Source: Sutcliffiella horikoshii DSM 8719 (GTDB lineage Bacteria; Bacillota; Bacilli; Bacillales; Bacillaceae_I). From it: a DNA stretch of 64,000 bases. The notes under the pieces were generated by a model that saw only the letters and a list, made by a program, of their open reading frames with translations, made no database searches and was not told where the DNA came from. Shown one piece after another: positions 10,758 to 60,808 of this stretch. The DNA is taken from the NCBI GenBank assembly GCA_001648575.1, contig LQXN01000067.1, forward strand, positions 62,001 through 126,000. Direction: 5' to 3'. Position 1 is the stretch's first letter. Every line of letters begins with the position of its first letter. A program made the translations under genes and the position numbers.

Positions 10758-11156
10758 TTACTCTGAAGGTGCTACAATCTCCACCTTGATCCTGTCGGGA
10801 TCTTCAAAAAACACAGCATAGTAATTTTCTCCACCTGCATATGGATGCTTATCCATGTAGAGCATGCTTACTCCACGAGATTTAAGTTGTTCTGTCAGGC
10901 ATTCTACCTGGTCCCGTGAAGATGCGTGAAAAGCTAGATGATTAAGACCTACTCTGCTTCGGTGATAAGGAATATCCAGAAACCTTTCTTCAGTTTGGAC
11001 AAAGACGATATAAGTATCTCCTAATTTCCAACTCTTTCCCTTATCCCAGTCCTGATAGAGTTTATAACCTAACTCTTCTAGCAACCAGCCCCAGAACTCA
11101 TTCGATTTCTTGAGATTAGAAACATAAAGTTCTATGTGGTGTATCAATCCTGTCAT
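10758..11156 (-). CDS. VOC superfamily (glyoxalase/bleomycin-resistance fold) protein
   Basis: A 132-residue protein with two beta-alpha-beta-beta-beta units of the vicinal-oxygen-chelate fold. Likely metal ligands are His7 (IHHIELYV), the His in GLNHLAFHA, and the Glu near the C-terminus (IKVEIVAP). The substrate is unknown; family members include glyoxalases, dioxygenases and antibiotic-binding proteins. Its ATG overlaps the stop of the upstream nucleotidyltransferase-like gene by four bases. Confidence 0.8.
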   Translation of the reverse strand: MTGLIHHIELYVSNLKKSNEFWGWLLEELGYKLYQDWDKGKSWKLGDTYIVFVQTEERFLDIPYHRSRVGLNHLAFHASSRDQVECLTEQLKSRGVSMLYMDKHPYAGGENYYAVFFEDPDRIKVEIVAPSE

Positions 11157-11734
11157 GATCTTACTCCTCCTGCATGAAATACGGGTATTTTAGGCCAAAT
11201 CCCTTGCCAATTTTTCTCTTTCAAACGCTTCTCATAGATAGTTGATCGATCAGAAGATGTTTGAAATGTGGCAGTGGGTTTGACTTCCAGGTTCACTAGG
11301 TCTTGTATTCCACAGGGTGCCGCTAATTCCAAATTATCGTCTTCATTCAACTTCACGCCAATGGCTGTAGCCGATTCAGGAAATTTAGACATTGCTTCAA
11401 TGGAATTTATATAGGGTGGTACGGTATTAACAACATGCATCCTTGCCTGATTTTTAACCGACCAAGGAGCTTGTGGGTATAATTGCAAAAGTCGTCTTTC
11501 AAACTGTTTTTCTTTCTCCTCAGAAATAACCTTACTGTCAAAATAAATGACATCTATATCTGGCACTGGCGTCCTGTTGGTATAACCATGCAAGGTGTCC
11601 CACACTTTTGAACGCACAAACCCTGCACACACCCACCAATCGGGTAGATCCAATTTCATTGCAGCCTTTATGATATCCATCATCCATTCATCTGATTGAA
11701 TGAGATTCAGTATATCTTCTTCAGTCTTAATCAA
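11153..11734 (-). CDS. Nucleotidyltransferase-fold family protein (DUF925 type)
   Basis: A 193-residue protein resembling the PF06042-type nucleotidyltransferase-like family. It has WWVCAGFVRSKVWD near the N-terminus, then the paired acidic residues VPDIDVIYFD of the polymerase-beta-like active site, MHVVNTVPPY, AIGVKL and a C-terminal YEKRLKEKNW. The reaction is not known. The start is TTG at 11734: an upstream GTG at 11752 would have the AAAGGAGG ribosome binding site inside its own coding sequence. It overlaps the next gene (VOC protein) by ATGA. Confidence 0.75.
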   Translation of the reverse strand: MIKTEEDILNLIQSDEWMMDIIKAAMKLDLPDWWVCAGFVRSKVWDTLHGYTNRTPVPDIDVIYFDSKVISEEKEKQFERRLLQLYPQAPWSVKNQARMHVVNTVPPYINSIEAMSKFPESATAIGVKLNEDDNLELAAPCGIQDLVNLEVKPTATFQTSSDRSTIYEKRLKEKNWQGIWPKIPVFHAGGVRS

Positions 11735-11785
11735 AAAAATGCCTCCTTTCACGGCACACGAACATATATTCCCATTATACCGAAA

Positions 11786-24208: not shown

Positions 24209-24222
24209 CGAATATACGTTCT
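24209..24222 (+). promoter_or_regulatory. LexA (SOS) box before the DinB-family gene
   Basis: CGAATATACGTTCT matches CGAACRNRYGTTYC at 12 of 14 positions. It ends two bases before a TATAAT (24225-24230), so a bound repressor would block the promoter of the DinB-family gene at 24288. Confidence 0.6.
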
Positions 24223-24287: not shown

Positions 24288-24746
24288 ATGTCATCATCAA
24301 CAACCAGTTATCAAGCTTATGAAAGCAATATGGAATTCTTTCGATTGTTTGGAATTAAAGAAGAAGCTGAATTAAATACTCCAATAAGTAATGGAAAATG
24401 GTCTGTGAAAGAAATTATCGGTCATATTTATTATTGGGACCTTTTTTTGTTAGAAACCATGGTACCCGAAATGAAAGAATCTGGCGTGTTGCCTGACTTT
24501 CCTGATCATGATGACTATAATGAAAAAGCGATTCAGTCAATAAAGAGATTCCCTGATATGAAAGCTCTTCTAGAAGAATTTACACTTACTCGGAAGGAAT
24601 TGATCAGGAAGATGGAGAATTTGAACCAAGAAGAAACATTCACCATTGGGAAAAAAAAGCGAAAATTCACTCCTGGATCTTTTCTGAAAATGTTTGTAGG
24701 ACACGATAACCATCATATCGAGCAAATCAAAAACCAAGCTGTTTAA
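24288..24746 (+). CDS. DinB-family metal-dependent protein, probably SOS-regulated
   Basis: A 152-residue four-helix-bundle protein of the DinB/YfiT-like superfamily. The expected metal ligands are His46 (EIIGHIYYWD) and the C-terminal His pair in GHDNHHIEQI. B. subtilis DinB, the founding member, is damage-inducible; family members may act as metal-dependent thiol transferases or hydrolases, but the activity is unproven. A LexA-type box and TATAAT lie directly upstream, supporting SOS control. GTGAGG precedes the ATG. The DUF1287 gene follows after 14 bases. Confidence 0.82.
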   Translation: MSSSTTSYQAYESNMEFFRLFGIKEEAELNTPISNGKWSVKEIIGHIYYWDLFLLETMVPEMKESGVLPDFPDHDDYNEKAIQSIKRFPDMKALLEEFTLTRKELIRKMENLNQEETFTIGKKKRKFTPGSFLKMFVGHDNHHIEQIKNQAV

Positions 24747-35263: not shown

Positions 35264-35296
35264 AAAAAAAACGACACCAACTAGTGGCATCGCATT
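35264..35296 (-). terminator. Terminator of the GyrI-like gene pair
   Basis: On the - strand CGATGCCAC and TGGTGTCG pair around TAGT and are followed by nine T residues. Confidence 0.8.
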
Positions 35297-35300
35297 ATAT

Positions 35301-35792
35301 TCATGATTTTAATACAATCGGTATAAGGATTTCAAAATGTGGATCTTCTAGATCTCTATCAACTGGATATCTCTCATGCTTAATTGGAAGATCATCGAAA
35401 TATTCCACCCCATTTTCTTTTAACGGTTGATAATCACACCCCTTAAACCATTGATAAATTTCCGTATATGTGACGCCGATATCTTTTCCTTTAGGGTGCT
35501 TGACTATTAAGTAGGTCATCTCCGGTACATTGACTTCGATCATTCCAGGTGGTATTTCTTGTTGATCATCCACTTCAAATACCGAGTAATGAACAAATCC
35601 ATCTGGTCTTAAATGATAAGATAATCCTAATTGTGTTTCAGGATTTTTTACGAAACGCAGTTCATTGACTCTTTTGCCCATTCGTAAGATCACTTCTTTT
35701 AATTTTGGCACATCTCCATAGGGTCCTTCCCACTTGAGCCCCATCGCCCGGTAGGAAGGTATGGTTACTATTTCACCGATTAGTGTTTTCAT
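35301..35792 (-). CDS. GyrI-like (SOUL/AraC effector-binding fold) protein
   Basis: A 163-residue stand-alone effector-binding domain of the GyrI/SbmC-like superfamily. The N-terminal strand TIPSYRAMGLKWEG, the central YHLRPDGFVHYSVFEV and the ECD-like YTEIYQWFKGCDYQP are typical. Such proteins bind small amphipathic or toxic molecules or hydrolyse them. AGGAGG precedes the ATG at 35792. A second, related gene lies 17 bases upstream. Confidence 0.78.
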   Translation of the reverse strand: MKTLIGEIVTIPSYRAMGLKWEGPYGDVPKLKEVILRMGKRVNELRFVKNPETQLGLSYHLRPDGFVHYSVFEVDDQQEIPPGMIEVNVPEMTYLIVKHPKGKDIGVTYTEIYQWFKGCDYQPLKENGVEYFDDLPIKHERYPVDRDLEDPHFEILIPIVLKS

Positions 35793-35809
35793 AGACAAAT
35801 CCTCCTCAT

Positions 35810-36286
35810 TTAATCGACTATTGGAATACATAATTCCACTATTTCTTCTTCAGCATTTTCCTCAAAATAGAAAATTTCAATTGGCAAAGCCTTCTCTAGG
35901 CTTTCTTGGCGATGGCCATTCTCCTTCATCCAGGAAAAGATTCTTTCATACCCTTTATCAATCGTTTTGTTTGAGCAGCTAACTTTTGCATATGTTGTCA
36001 TTGGAATATCTAATGCCATCATCCCCTTAGGAATATCGCCATATCCCTTCACTTCCACACAGGCAAAATATGTAGCAACCAGGCTGTTTGCAAGATACGG
36101 GCTATAAATCACATCAGGATTTACAACTTGCCTAACTTCATCCCTTCTATTCTCAAACTCTTGTTGTACATTCATCGAAACTTCAGGAAAGGACTTTGGA
36201 AAATTACCTGTCGCACATTGACCAACCAACTGAAGTTTTCTTTGAACCACTTCACATTTAAAAGTTGCAATGGAATTTTGAATCAT
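35810..36286 (-). CDS. Second GyrI-like effector-binding protein
   Basis: A 158-residue protein of the same fold as its downstream neighbour but diverged (QRKLQLVGQCATGNF, YFACVEVKGYGDIPKGM, ERIFSWMKENGHRQ). The tandem arrangement suggests duplication. AAAGGAG precedes the ATG. The conserved C-terminal PIEIFYF and ELCIPI strands are present. Ligand unknown. Confidence 0.75.
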   Translation of the reverse strand: MIQNSIATFKCEVVQRKLQLVGQCATGNFPKSFPEVSMNVQQEFENRRDEVRQVVNPDVIYSPYLANSLVATYFACVEVKGYGDIPKGMMALDIPMTTYAKVSCSNKTIDKGYERIFSWMKENGHRQESLEKALPIEIFYFEENAEEEIVELCIPIVD

Positions 36287-36367: not shown

Positions 36368-37027
36368 TTAACAACAATAATCAAAAGGATGCAAGGGGGG
36401 TTGTGCTGAAAATATCCATTTAGGATTCAGTGAAGGGTCCGCCCAGTGCCACGCTGCCAATGCGGCAGCACAAGAATCGATGGAGTGGCTTTCATTTTCT
36501 ACACCGTTTGGCAACCCGGTCACGTTTTGTTGTTCAAACCAGTTCTTAAGATATTTTCGTGATGAAAGATTTTTTTTATATGTAAGAACGTATTCTAATT
36601 CTTTTTCTGTTACTCTGGCTCCAATTGCCGCACCTGGATGCACTTCCACTATTGATATAGGAAAAGCCTTAGGAAGATTCTCTATCTCTCTCGTAAGCTT
36701 AATCCCTCTTAACGTCAGATATACCATTCTTGTATATGTTGGGGGCATTATGGAACCTGACTTCATCCCTAAGGAAACAATATATTTTCTCAACTCTTTA
36801 TCACTTGTCCTGTCTCCACCTCCATCCTGATAGGATAATGGAGCATCTATTCCAATAAAGAGTTTAGCTGATTTACTTAAGTCTATTAATTCACTTAGTA
36901 TTTCTTCATCGCTTATGTTAGATATCATTTTTTGAAAAGTTAAATGATTTTTATTCAGTTGGAATACCGTAAGTACTGTATCTCTATGATTACTTGGACC
37001 AGCCAAGTCCAACCCGATTACTAGCAT
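36368..37027 (-). CDS. DUF429 protein (RNase H-like fold)
   Basis: A 219-residue protein of the DUF429 family, predicted to have an RNase H-like fold. VIGLDLAGPSNH at the N-terminus, FIGIDAPLS in the middle, EVHPGAAIG and the C-terminal SIDSCAAALAAW supply the acidic active-site pattern (Asp in GLDLAG, Asp in GIDAPL, Glu in VEVHP, Asp in SIDSC). Activity is unproven. The ATG at 37027 follows GGAGGTGGGGG. It begins 21 bases after the AAA ATPase gene, so the two form an operon that starts at a LexA box. Confidence 0.75.
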   Translation of the reverse strand: MLVIGLDLAGPSNHRDTVLTVFQLNKNHLTFQKMISNISDEEILSELIDLSKSAKLFIGIDAPLSYQDGGGDRTSDKELRKYIVSLGMKSGSIMPPTYTRMVYLTLRGIKLTREIENLPKAFPISIVEVHPGAAIGARVTEKELEYVLTYKKNLSSRKYLKNWFEQQNVTGLPNGVENESHSIDSCAAALAAWHWADPSLNPKWIFSAQPPLHPFDYCC

Positions 37028-37048
37028 TGATCCCCCACCTCCCATATC

Positions 37049-37810
37049 TCAATTTTGCCGAAACAAGTGATACATCATCCTTTTCCTATCTTCAAAAAAT
37101 TGTTTCATTATCGTATAGTGCGGTGTGTCTTCCAATATGGCTTCACTCATCCCATTTTCAGTAAGTTCAAGAATTTTCGCATCGGGGTATGCCATGACAA
37201 TCGGGGAGTGTGTAGAGATAATGAATTGTGATCCATCTTGGACCAATTCGTTAATTCTGGCTAGCATGGACATTTGCCTGAGCGGAGATAAAGCGGATTC
37301 CGGCTCATCGAGTATATATAAGCCTTTTCCTTGAAACCTTTCTACGAAAGCTGCGAAAAAGGACTCTCCATGTGATTGTTGATGAAGTGATTTTCCCCCA
37401 AAAGAATCAATGATCCTTCCTCCTCCCCCAGGTTCCCTGTCCATTTCCTCTATATTGGTTGCGACATTATAGAAAGTCTCCGCCCTAAAGAAAAAACTAT
37501 CCAGCGGTCTCTCTGCACCTTTAATAACACGTAAATAGTCGTCCAACTCAGAGTGGGAGTCATAGCTTGAAAAGTTAAAATTGAGCGTTCCTCCTTCTGG
37601 ATTAAACCCCAAAGCAATAGCAATCCCCTCAAGTAAGGTGGATTTACCCATCCCGTTTTCACCAACGATGTAGGTGACATTAGGATGCAGGTGAAGTGTG
37701 TTCAAGTCTTTTATTACGGGAAGGTTGAAAGGAAAGCGGTCAAATGTGGGAATGCTTTCCCTTTTTAAAGTGATAGCTCTTATGTATTGGGTTTCTTTCT
37801 CTAGTTTCAA
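37049..37810 (-). CDS. AAA-type ATPase (RecF/SbcC-like, single domain)
   Basis: A 253-residue ATPase related to the ABC/SMC-like AAA group. Walker A is GENGMGKST (50-58), a Q-loop region lies near residue 105, the signature is LHQQSHGESF, Walker B is GLYILDEPESALSP, and the H-loop is ISTHSPIVMAYP. There is no long coiled coil. Such small ATPases often act with nucleases or in stress responses. It starts 18 bases after the phosphotransferase gene and is followed by the DUF429 gene, in an operon headed by a LexA consensus box. Confidence 0.85.
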   Translation of the reverse strand: MKLEKETQYIRAITLKRESIPTFDRFPFNLPVIKDLNTLHLHPNVTYIVGENGMGKSTLLEGIAIALGFNPEGGTLNFNFSSYDSHSELDDYLRVIKGAERPLDSFFFRAETFYNVATNIEEMDREPGGGGRIIDSFGGKSLHQQSHGESFFAAFVERFQGKGLYILDEPESALSPLRQMSMLARINELVQDGSQFIISTHSPIVMAYPDAKILELTENGMSEAILEDTPHYTIMKQFFEDRKRMMYHLFRQN

Positions 37811-37828
37811 CTCTTACTCCCTCCTTTA

Positions 37829-38809
37829 TCAATCCATTAGAATGTTCTCTAATTCGAAATAATTTTCTTGCAACCATTTCATTTCTTCCAAGAACCTAAT
37901 TGGAGGTCCTACATGCAAATCCATCTCTGCATCAATCCACCATGTGCTTTCCATGTACCAAAGCAGTCTGAGTCCTTCTATCAAAAAAGAATCTGTACAT
38001 GAAATCTCACTCTTATAGCCTCTCATGAAACTTTTCACCAATTCCACATCAAGAAAATGGCCACTTAATGCGCTTGACATAACTGCTCTTGCCACATCTA
38101 ACTTAGGGTAGTCAAATCTTAGGCGGTCAAAATCAAGAATGGCTGAAACTCTGCCTTCATGAAACAGGATATTATCCAAGAACAAATCTCTATGTGCCCA
38201 GCCGGTATCTCCCAACCCAAGTGTACTTAAGTCGACTTTTCCCGTTAACAAGCGTTGTTTTTTTATGATTTGCACGAGATTTTCTTTACCTTTGGTACAT
38301 GCTTCTTCTTCTACATTCAACCAATGGATGATCCGTTGTTCTGTGCTTGGTGGAATAAACGTTGGACACTGTTTTTTATCTGCTGCACCATCGTTTAGAA
38401 GGGCATGCATACTACCAGTTAATTTTCCAAAGTGGTTCATTTCTTCTTGATTAAGCGTTCCGTGAGTTTTTATTTTTCCAGGGCAGAATTCCATTACCAT
38501 GAATATTTCATGTCCGTCAGATTTCCACAGGGGCGATTCCTTATTGAGATAAATATCAGGGCAGGGAAAATCCTTATCATTCAACCTTTTCTGCTGTTTT
38601 AATGCAAACAAAAGATCTTTTCGGTCATATCTATTTAATCTACTTTTATTGAATTGCTTGATTAGAAAGGTGCCCTTCTCTGTTGTTACTTTCCATTTCA
38701 AATTAAGGTAACCACGATTAATCGGGTTGATCTCTAAAATTTCTTCTACAATGTGTGCAGACAGTGTTTGTAAAATATCATCTCTTATAGTCTCTTGGGA
38801 TATGACCAT
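37829..38809 (-). CDS. Phosphotransferase-family protein (APH/CotS-like kinase fold)
   Basis: A 326-residue protein of the aminoglycoside-phosphotransferase/choline-kinase fold. FLIKQFNKSR supplies the ATP-binding Lys, FMVMEFCPG the hinge, WAHRDLFLDNILF the catalytic loop (Brenner-like His-x-Asp with Asn), and ILDFDRLRFDY the metal-binding Asp. Some Bacillus relatives (CotS, YsxE) are spore-coat proteins, others small-molecule kinases. I chose the ATG at 38809, seven bases after AAAGGGTG, over the one at 38815. First gene of the operon with the AAA ATPase and DUF429 genes. Confidence 0.82.
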   Translation of the reverse strand: MVISQETIRDDILQTLSAHIVEEILEINPINRGYLNLKWKVTTEKGTFLIKQFNKSRLNRYDRKDLLFALKQQKRLNDKDFPCPDIYLNKESPLWKSDGHEIFMVMEFCPGKIKTHGTLNQEEMNHFGKLTGSMHALLNDGAADKKQCPTFIPPSTEQRIIHWLNVEEEACTKGKENLVQIIKKQRLLTGKVDLSTLGLGDTGWAHRDLFLDNILFHEGRVSAILDFDRLRFDYPKLDVARAVMSSALSGHFLDVELVKSFMRGYKSEISCTDSFLIEGLRLLWYMESTWWIDAEMDLHVGPPIRFLEEMKWLQENYFELENILMD

Positions 38810-38867
38810 ACTCATTCACCCTTTATTAGCATAATTTTCTAATTAATATAAGTAATCGTATCACAAG

Positions 38868-38881
38868 CGAACAAATGTTTC
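38868..38881. promoter_or_regulatory. LexA (SOS) box upstream of the phosphotransferase-AAA-DUF429 operon
   Basis: CGAACAAATGTTTC satisfies all 14 positions of the Bacillus consensus CGAACRNRYGTTYC. It lies about 60 bases before the start codon at 38809, among several weak -35/-10 candidates (for example TTGTTC-17-TTATAT on the - strand). Confidence 0.6.
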
Positions 38882-38980
38882 CACACAATTGATAGATCAT
38901 TTCTTGATGTATAATCTACCATTGACTACATTTATTGCTTGAAAAGGATGAAGATTCATACAAGCATTGGAAGGACAAAT

Positions 38981-39015
38981 AAAAGAATGGCAGGAACACG
39001 TCCTGCCATTCTTTT
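38981..39015. terminator. Strong bidirectional terminator hairpin
   Basis: AAAAGAATGGCAGGA and TCCTGCCATTCTTTT form a perfect 15-bp stem with a five-base loop. It directly follows the stop codon of the 119-aa gene on the - strand. Confidence 0.85.
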
Positions 39016-39016
39016 C

Positions 39017-39376
39017 TTATGCGGTGATGATTCTATCCTCTGTGACCATCTCAGGATTGCGACCAAACATTACATAGTCTGTCGAGATCGGTAGAATGTC
39101 GATAATGCTATTAAAGTTCAATAGATTATCAAACTGAGTTCCTCTTACTGTAACGATTTGAGTTTTACTGTAAATATCGCCATTGAAATTAGTCGACATC
39201 ACAATACCATTCAAGAAAGGATTTTCTTCACTTCCGTAGAAAATGGTTCTTGTCTGTCCGGGAGCAAGTGTAAATACAACTTCTCCGGCATAGTTAGAGG
39301 GATTACTTCCTTGTCGCACAAGGAGAACCATTTGCAAAGAAGCTGCACTTCGGTTATTGAAAGTCTTTTGTGCCAT
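39017..39376 (-). CDS. Hypothetical beta-rich protein (119 aa)
   Basis: A 119-residue protein without cysteines, signal peptide or membrane segment. Alternating strands (SLQMVLLVRQGSNPSNYAG, VVFTLAPGQTRTIFYG, KTQIVTVRGTQF) suggest a beta-sandwich, reminiscent of self-assembling spore-surface or appendage proteins of Bacillus. I do not recognise a named family. AGGAGGGGAA precedes the ATG, and a very strong terminator follows, consistent with high expression. Confidence 0.6.
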   Translation of the reverse strand: MAQKTFNNRSAASLQMVLLVRQGSNPSNYAGEVVFTLAPGQTRTIFYGSEENPFLNGIVMSTNFNGDIYSKTQIVTVRGTQFDNLLNFNSIIDILPISTDYVMFGRNPEMVTEDRIITA

Positions 39377-59108: not shown

Positions 59109-59339
59109 TTAATGTTTTAAATTCTTTTTTGTTTCCTTTAATTTTTCCGGAGTGACGTCATTACCCTCCGGATCCATGATAGTTACACCTTGTAAGGTAT
59201 TTTCCATGGATGCACGAAAAGTCTTAATATACTCCTGACGAAGCTCTTGTTGTTCAATCGTTTCTTCCTTAGTCAACCCTTTAGATTTAGCTTTCTTGGA
59301 AAGGGTGTTTATTCTTGCAATTTTTTCTTTTGATAGCAT
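59109..59339 (-). CDS. ynzC: UPF0291 protein YnzC
   Basis: A 76-residue, highly charged, two-helix protein (DUF896): [19 protein letters not shown], then [19 protein letters not shown] and the [14 protein letters not shown] end. It matches B. subtilis YnzC, which lies in the SOS-induced yneA-yneB-ynzC operon. Here it is 45 bases downstream of yneB on the same strand, so it is probably SOS-controlled as well. Function unknown. Confidence 0.93.
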
Positions 59340-59384
59340 ATAAAACTCCTTCTTTCTTCCTTGTGAAGATATGCTTTTATCTTA

Positions 59385-60086
<702 letters not shown>

Positions 60087-60091
60087 CTATT

Positions 60092-60120
60092 ATTATCAAA
60101 CGAACATATATTCCTGTCAA
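60092..60120 (-). promoter_or_regulatory. Sigma-A promoter of yneB-ynzC
   Basis: On the - strand TTGACA (60115-60120), 17-base spacer, GATAAT (60092-60097), predicting a start near 60085. Confidence 0.75.
60101..60114. promoter_or_regulatory. LexA box 1 (yneB promoter)
   Basis: CGAACATATATTCC matches CGAACRNRYGTTYC except one base. It fills most of the spacer between the -35 and -10 elements of the yneB promoter. Confidence 0.8.
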
Positions 60121-60125
60121 TAATT

Positions 60126-60139
60126 CGAACTTATGTTTG
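60126..60139. promoter_or_regulatory. LexA box 2 (lexA promoter)
   Basis: CGAACTTATGTTTG matches the consensus at 12 of 14 positions and overlaps the lexA -35 element, as needed for autorepression. Confidence 0.75.
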
Positions 60140-60165: not shown

Positions 60166-60196
60166 GATACCAATATAAATGATAGAGGTGCGGAAT

Positions 60197-60808
60197 ATGA
60201 AACTATCAAAAAGACAACAGGATATACTGGATTACATCAAAAAAGAAGTCCAGGCAAAAGGGTATCCACCTTCCGTCCGGGAAATCGGGGAAGCAGTTGG
60301 ACTTGCTTCCAGTTCCACTGTCCACGGACATCTTGCCCGCCTTGAAAGCAAAGGTCTTATTCGCCGAGACCCAACTAAACCAAGAGCCATTGAAATTATG
60401 GAAGACGAACTTATTCCGAAGATTTCCGCAGTTAATGTACCGATCATTGGTAAAGTAACCGCTGGCCAGCCGATTACAGCTATTGAGAATGTGGAGGACT
60501 ACTTCCCGCTTCCTGATCGCTATGTTGCACCAGACGAGCAAGTTTTCATGCTTGAGGTTATGGGGGACAGTATGATTGAAGCAGGTATCCTTGATGGGGA
60601 TTATGTTATCGTTCGCCAGCAGCAATCTGCTAACAATGGAGACATCGTCGTAGCAATGACTGAAGAAGATGAAGCCACTGTAAAACGCTTCTTCAAAGAA
60701 AAAGATTACATTCGACTACAACCGGAAAATTCCACTTTGGAACCTATCATTGTCCGCAATGTGAGCATTCTCGGTAAAGTAATTGGGGTTTATCGTAATA
60801 TTCATTAA
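60197..60808 (+). CDS. lexA: SOS repressor LexA (DinR)
   Basis: A 203-residue repressor of the SOS response. The N-terminal winged helix (residues 1-65; [20 protein letters not shown]) binds DNA. The self-cleavage site Ala89-Gly90 lies in KVTAGQPI, and the catalytic dyad is Ser125 (MGDSMIEAG) and Lys163 (ATVKRFF). RecA filaments trigger cleavage. The ATG at 60197 has AGAGGTG upstream; one at 60179 lies before that site. It is divergent from yneB and autoregulated through box 2. Confidence 0.97.

Follow-up and report, generated by a model that had tools for sequence, protein, structure and literature searches.

The SOS boxes of Bacillus subtilis, e.g. those of yolC and yolD, follow the consensus CGAACATATGTTCG, and LexA is reported to bind the regions of both genes with a value of 3.9 nM, the two boxes lying 3 to 4 positions off this consensus with their GAAC/GTTC cores intact (PMC8270828). 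A DUF429 domain is part of RelZ (MS_RHII-RSD) from Mycobacterium smegmatis, where it is named as the RNase HII part (PMC4429107); RelZ is described as UV-induced and R-loop-removing in a review in which the name DUF429 does not appear (PMC7591505). Here, we analyzed a stretch of 64,000 nucleotides from Sutcliffiella horikoshii DSM 8719 (contig LQXN01000067.1, positions 62,001 to 126,000; hereafter the window), in which a LexA-type box overlaps the predicted promoter of a unit encoding a standalone ABC-type ATPase and a DUF429 protein. Judging from the conservation of this box, the unit is very probably controlled by LexA.

The LexA box and its conservation

38868-38881, no strand assigned: LexA box CGAACAAATGTTTC (GAAACATTTGTTCG on the minus strand), exact match to the consensus
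38855-38883, minus strand: predicted promoter, read from the sequence, with TGGAAA (38883-38878), a 17-nt spacer, TACGAT (38860-38855) and an extended -10 TGA
37049-37810, minus strand: standalone ABC-type ATPase of 253 amino acids (AAA_15/AAA_21) with a TTG start, core member of the unit
36368-37027, minus strand: DUF429 nuclease-like gene (open reading frame to 37045, likely start ATG at 37027)
60101-60139, no strand assigned: two LexA boxes before the window's own lexA (60179-60808), reference sites

A sequence-only reading of the window had pointed out the box at 38868-38881 and placed it about 60 bases before the first gene of an operon; it matches the LexA consensus exactly, as claimed, with a distance of 52 bases to the start codon of that gene, an APH-family gene, at 38815. 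When the Bacillus LexA consensus, CGAACRNRYGTTYC, was used as an exact-match pattern, this site was the only one in the window (mean of 0.00 in 100 shuffles), and our recalculation agrees with the chance rate given earlier, i.e. 0.03 matches in 64 kb if both strands are counted and base frequencies are equal. As a reversed control pattern is equally frequent in the 4.68-Mb genome, a single exact match is weak evidence, and it is the conservation across the genus that decides.

Among 16 genomes of what appears to be the genus Sutcliffiella an ATPase ortholog, called at E 1e-30 or better, is found in 14, G001 and G015 having none at this threshold. The 14-bp box GAAACRTTTGTTCG is kept in 12 of these 14 genomes, in nine of them before the ATPase gene (45 to 57 bases upstream) and in three before the APH gene. 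Moreover, lexA is present in all 16 genomes, including the copy in the window, and recA, lexA and uvrB of the genus bear conserved boxes of the same type, so that the proposed LexA operator at the promoter of the unit is supported by its retention in LexA-bearing relatives. In a footprint alignment of the 12 boxed genomes, i.e. excluding G002 and G009 (ATPase, no box) as well as G001 and G015, 13 of the 14 box columns are invariant, the remaining column varying in a way that the LexA consensus allows, as compared to 1/40 columns just upstream, 2/17 just downstream and 1/24 beyond. If the 12 regions are aligned without an anchor, the most conserved 14-column window consists of the same box columns. 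The DNA of the window beyond the box is unlike that of the 11 boxed relatives; box and promoter nevertheless persist, and the relatives hold similar letters at the place of the predicted promoter, whose -35 element and spacer are each partly covered by the box. This promoter is missing from the promoter scan because each hexamer agrees with the consensus at 4/6 positions, which is below the scan threshold. A midpoint-rooted tree of recA and uvrB is most simply read as a gain of the box in the ancestor of a 13-genome clade and its loss in G009.

Several observations weigh against a LexA operator. In the genome, the exact consensus is matched just as often as the reversed control (twice each), and G002 and G009 carry the ATPase without the box. 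The unanchored alignment failed to pick the uvrB box as best window (15 genomes), and in the nine genomes lacking APH the tRNA-Sec stretch reaches 11/14 invariant columns. In a cruder control some other genes, too, are preceded by windows of 14 columns of which 12 to 14 are invariant, several of these windows being coding; the best windows had 6 to 14 invariant columns, with 12/14 for the gene at 39017-39376 (7 genomes). This control was badly built, APH coding sequence preceding the ATPase in 3/12 genomes and several other "upstream" regions being coding, and because it mixed coding DNA into upstream regions the unanchored alignment was used instead. Additionally, a motif model derived from the four known boxes of recA, lexA and uvrB assigns 10.5 to the box and 16.2 to 18.5 to those known boxes, on which it was trained and which it favours, and nine other sites in the window outscore the box, two of them being the lexA boxes. 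Finally, the box deviates from CGAACATATGTTCG at three positions, one of them in the GAAC/GTTC core (GTTT), unlike the yolC and yolD boxes. Compared with the CAAAC half of a lexA box, its weaker half (GAAAC) is changed in the first base alone.

The low motif score would also suit a site that resembles a LexA box by accident or that serves a different repressor, e.g. a catabolite-control (cre) site, and GAAACGTTT, present in 5/12 genomes, resembles part of the cre motif. In contrast, 7/12 genomes have an A at the position that would break the central CG of cre, and the outer LexA half-sites CGAAC and GTTTC are both invariant in all 12. The cre site was set aside, and we regard any reading of this kind as highly improbable, LexA being by far the preferred repressor.

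An intact tRNA-Sec gene adjoins the box on its upstream side in 9/12 boxed genomes (loci L062-L072). Apparently truncated remnants are found in L067 and L068 and none in the window, and it is possible that loss of the selenocysteine tRNA is in progress beside the box.

Beyond the genus, 300-350 nt upstream of the ATPase were searched in 65 genomes (76 loci, 11 of them repeating a genome). LexA-like sites within two mismatches were found in five of these genomes, only one of which, at L192, is near the ATPase start (35 nt), and this one was not found in eight congeners; within 300 nt upstream of DUF429 genes elsewhere there was none in 19. These results, too, count against our reading. There is no convincing box at the ATPase in the other genera, and at APH elsewhere two weak sites were seen in 34 loci. 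From the genus-wide box versus no convincing one in the 65 other genomes, LexA control of the ATPase therefore looks like a genus-level trait.

Further sites of the LexA type are present in the window. CGAATATACGTTCT at 24209-24222 scores like the known boxes; a DinB_2-family gene (24288-24746), which may be another SOS gene, begins 65 bases further on. CGAACATATATTCC at 11759-11772 is identical to one of the lexA boxes and is located 6 bases before an open reading frame for an NTP_transf_6 nucleotidyltransferase (11153-11752, minus strand). Within 59109-60139, on the lexA side, the start of a yneB-like resolvase gene is 23 bases away from the LexA boxes, and a short gene, presumably ynzC, comes next. 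Therefore, there is no yneA-like division-inhibitor gene in between, unlike in B. subtilis, where such a gene occupies this position.

Composition of the unit

37829-38815, minus strand: APH-family kinase-like gene, 328 amino acids, optional member (PF01636, 80.5 bits, cut-off 23.2)
35810-36286, minus strand: Cass2/GyrI-like effector-binding protein, probably on the same transcript (PF14526, 35.4 bits)
35301-35831, minus strand: GyrI-like small-molecule-binding protein, probably the last gene of the unit; its open reading frame overlaps the Cass2 gene (PF06445, 59.3 bits)
38981-39015, minus strand: terminator-like hairpin after the upstream gene 39017-39376, with a 15-pair stem and a T-rich tail
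35271-35293, minus strand: terminator-like hairpin that may close the unit (terminator scan)

Five minus-strand genes, i.e. APH, ATPase, DUF429, Cass2 and GyrI, lie between the two hairpins, and the terminator scan lists no terminator-like site on this strand between 38981 and 35293. The sequence-only reading had described an operon of the first three; Pfam agrees with its family calls and the open reading frame coordinates with the gaps of 18 and 21 bases it gave, and it had overlooked Cass2 and GyrI, which precede the next terminator-like site. The borders of the unit are likely rather than certain because the terminator scan yields three sites versus 3.1 expected from shuffles, terminator and promoter scans both being at or near chance numbers, which is a further point to be held against our reading.

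All of the 12 boxed operons contain the ATPase, 11 contain DUF429 together with Cass2 and GyrI, with DUF429 following the ATPase, and three contain APH, which then lies between box and ATPase. APH, ATPase and DUF429 occur together in 3/14 ATPase-bearing genomes of the genus, the window included, whereas 40 ATPase loci from other genera (one from the same family), some of which are shortened by contig ends, showed neither APH nor DUF429 nearby. The suggested search for a conserved neighbourhood of the three families gives no support to a three-gene system, which we reject as a unit, APH and DUF429 varying next to a constant box and ATPase.

An APH tree of 22 sequences, of which the APH search (35 loci) supplied 18, groups the APH of G009 with those of G000, G008 and G014 (support 0.994). 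Because of this grouping, APH may have been at the locus for a long time and have disappeared from it repeatedly; in S. deserti, too, APH is located near GyrI-GntR-ABC. A distant relative of the ATPase (35% identical) adjoins an APH relative (47%) in Tissierella sp. P1 (L041:5138-6987), the only such pair among 34 APH loci (L028-L061). We read APH, Cass2 and GyrI as passengers or small-molecule-linked add-ons.

The variable composition raises the question of whether the ATPase alone is the selected SOS gene, DUF429, Cass2, GyrI and APH being carried along with unrelated work. One boxed operon, that of G011, has the ATPase without DUF429, the presence of APH varies across the genus, and no gene regularly adjoins the ATPase in the 40 loci outside the genus, a mixed ABC ATPase cluster (7 loci; others in three or fewer) excepted. 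On the other hand, DUF429 is found 3' of the ATPase with short gaps in 11/12 boxed operons, and a DUF429 enzyme elsewhere, RelZ, is reported as damage-linked. A solitary role of the ATPase is in our view a minority option, although one to be taken seriously.

Proposed function of the ATPase and the DUF429 protein

The ATPase matches AAA_15 (52.8 bits) and AAA_21 (52.3 bits), and its structure model has a pLDDT of 84.9. In an alignment of the window protein with 31 of 70 listed sequences, internal stops and short matches having been dropped beforehand, the regions of Walker A (GENGMGKST), signature (SHGES), Walker B (LYILDEPE) and switch (STHSP) are kept. Its earlier designation as RecF/SbcC-like is roughly right, but the protein is a minimal ABC-type ATPase with no room for a coiled coil. 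At E 1e-40 it is found in 193/397 sampled genomes of the order, 14 of the genus counted; the family is putatively COG3910.

The DUF429 protein belongs to PF04250 (44.3 bits, cut-off 23), as do all 15 sequences of our alignment (the window and 14 of 29 sequences; E 1 or better), in which D9, D63, H183 and D186 are invariant; these residues may correspond to the catalytic tetrad of RuvC-type resolvases, located in strand 1, strand 4 and the last helix. The predicted fold is a RuvC-like RNase H fold. Against this, no sequence match to RuvC was found in Pfam or the PDB, RuvX is matched at E 0.12 by 2/15 members, a PDB profile search gave chance-level matches only, and residues 67-78 and 81-102 of the model have a pLDDT below 50. 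At E 1e-20 DUF429 occurs in 73/397 sampled genomes of the order, 11 of the genus counted. A stretch resembling TTACGAAAGTGAGG immediately precedes the start codon of many DUF429 genes in other genera (L162-L175).

Based on these findings we suggest that LexA bound at 38868-38881 would block the overlapping predicted promoter and that upon DNA damage RecA-stimulated cleavage of LexA would release it. The constant product would be the ABC-type ATPase and the usual second product DUF429 with its RuvC/RNase H fold, and both together may process nucleic-acid structures left by damage, the likeliest substrates being RNA:DNA hybrids (R-loops) or branched DNA at stalled forks. The sequence shows the box with its conservation, the order of the genes and the retention of residues of catalytic type, and it supports the regulatory half of this proposal well; promoter and folds are predictions, and we infer LexA binding and induction as well as the enzymatic half, with nuclease activity of DUF429 and its joint action with the ATPase. 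That LexA control goes together with nucleic-acid processing in some form is somewhat favoured, and clearance of R-loops or branched DNA, proposed because of the RelZ precedent (DUF429, RNase HII, UV-raised, R-loops), is a tentative assignment. The RelZ domains, RNase HII included, are reported not to work apart (PMC7591505), which speaks against our proposal.

A DNA-damage-inducible pair of ATPase and nuclease may also be an anti-phage module, in which the ATPase would sense invading DNA and DUF429 would cut nucleic acid. With E values up to 1 accepted, 157 defence models are matched by the ATPase (best: mads_3 2.8e-20, AriA 2.1e-16, PtuA 5.6e-14), as are PtuA chains in the PDB, and DUF429 matches the PADLOC candidate family PDC-S44 (E 3e-12). 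Most of the displayed model matches, however, are short stretches around one ATPase motif, and the unit has no HNH, TOPRIM or methylase partner of the kind found in Septu, PARIS and MADS. Moreover, the locus is stable, with GntR-ABC genes in 11/11 boxed relatives and proA in 8/11 fetched stretches. The search for close relatives confirmed none in viral contigs, with phage records being 4 for the ATPase and 0 for DUF429; in a check for mobile origin the ATPase had 43 plasmid records, 14 of the 15 listed plasmids exceeding 100 kb. Defence is therefore unlikely, and among the functions considered previously, i.e. DNA repair, phage defence or prophage-like stress response, repair fits better than phage defence, both being candidate roles. 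The proposed LexA control gives the ATPase family, which is widespread and uncharacterised, as well as the little-studied DUF429 family a concrete regulatory context, DNA damage, and thereby a cheap route to functional tests.

Comparison with described systems

We did not find the ATPase-DUF429 operon described in the literature searched, most subscription journals lying outside its scope, nor literature linking DUF429 with LexA, the apparent matches concerning DUF4297. The locus also illustrates clearly how a LexA operator can stay in place while the surrounding genes and DNA are exchanged.

RelZ shares with the present protein the DUF429 domain, for which RNase HII activity is reported, and the reported or proposed link to damage. 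It is fused to a (p)ppGpp synthetase, whereas here a single-domain DUF429 protein is encoded beside an ATPase behind a LexA box. It is a speculative idea, which we consider doubtful, that ATPase and DUF429 form an SOS-inducible R-loop/branched-DNA nuclease machine, i.e. a LexA-driven counterpart of RelZ joining an SMC/UvrA-like head to a RuvC-fold nuclease, and that the ATPase family as a whole has a related role in genome maintenance. The Holliday-junction resolvases RuvC, RuvX and MOC1 resemble DUF429 in predicted fold and apparently in the placement of D, D and HxxD on comparable elements, but there is no significant sequence relation and the second acid of DUF429 is D, not E. PtuA (Septu/retron), AriA (PARIS) and the MAD3 ATPases have the ABC-type motifs in common with our ATPase, which comprises only 253 residues, and their partner genes are not in the unit. 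The LexA regulon of B. subtilis agrees with the locus in the type of box, the overlap with a predicted promoter and the presence of lexA, recA and uvrB boxes in the same genomes, and differs in operon content. Taken together, the ATPase-DUF429 operon may be regarded as a new member of the LexA regulon.
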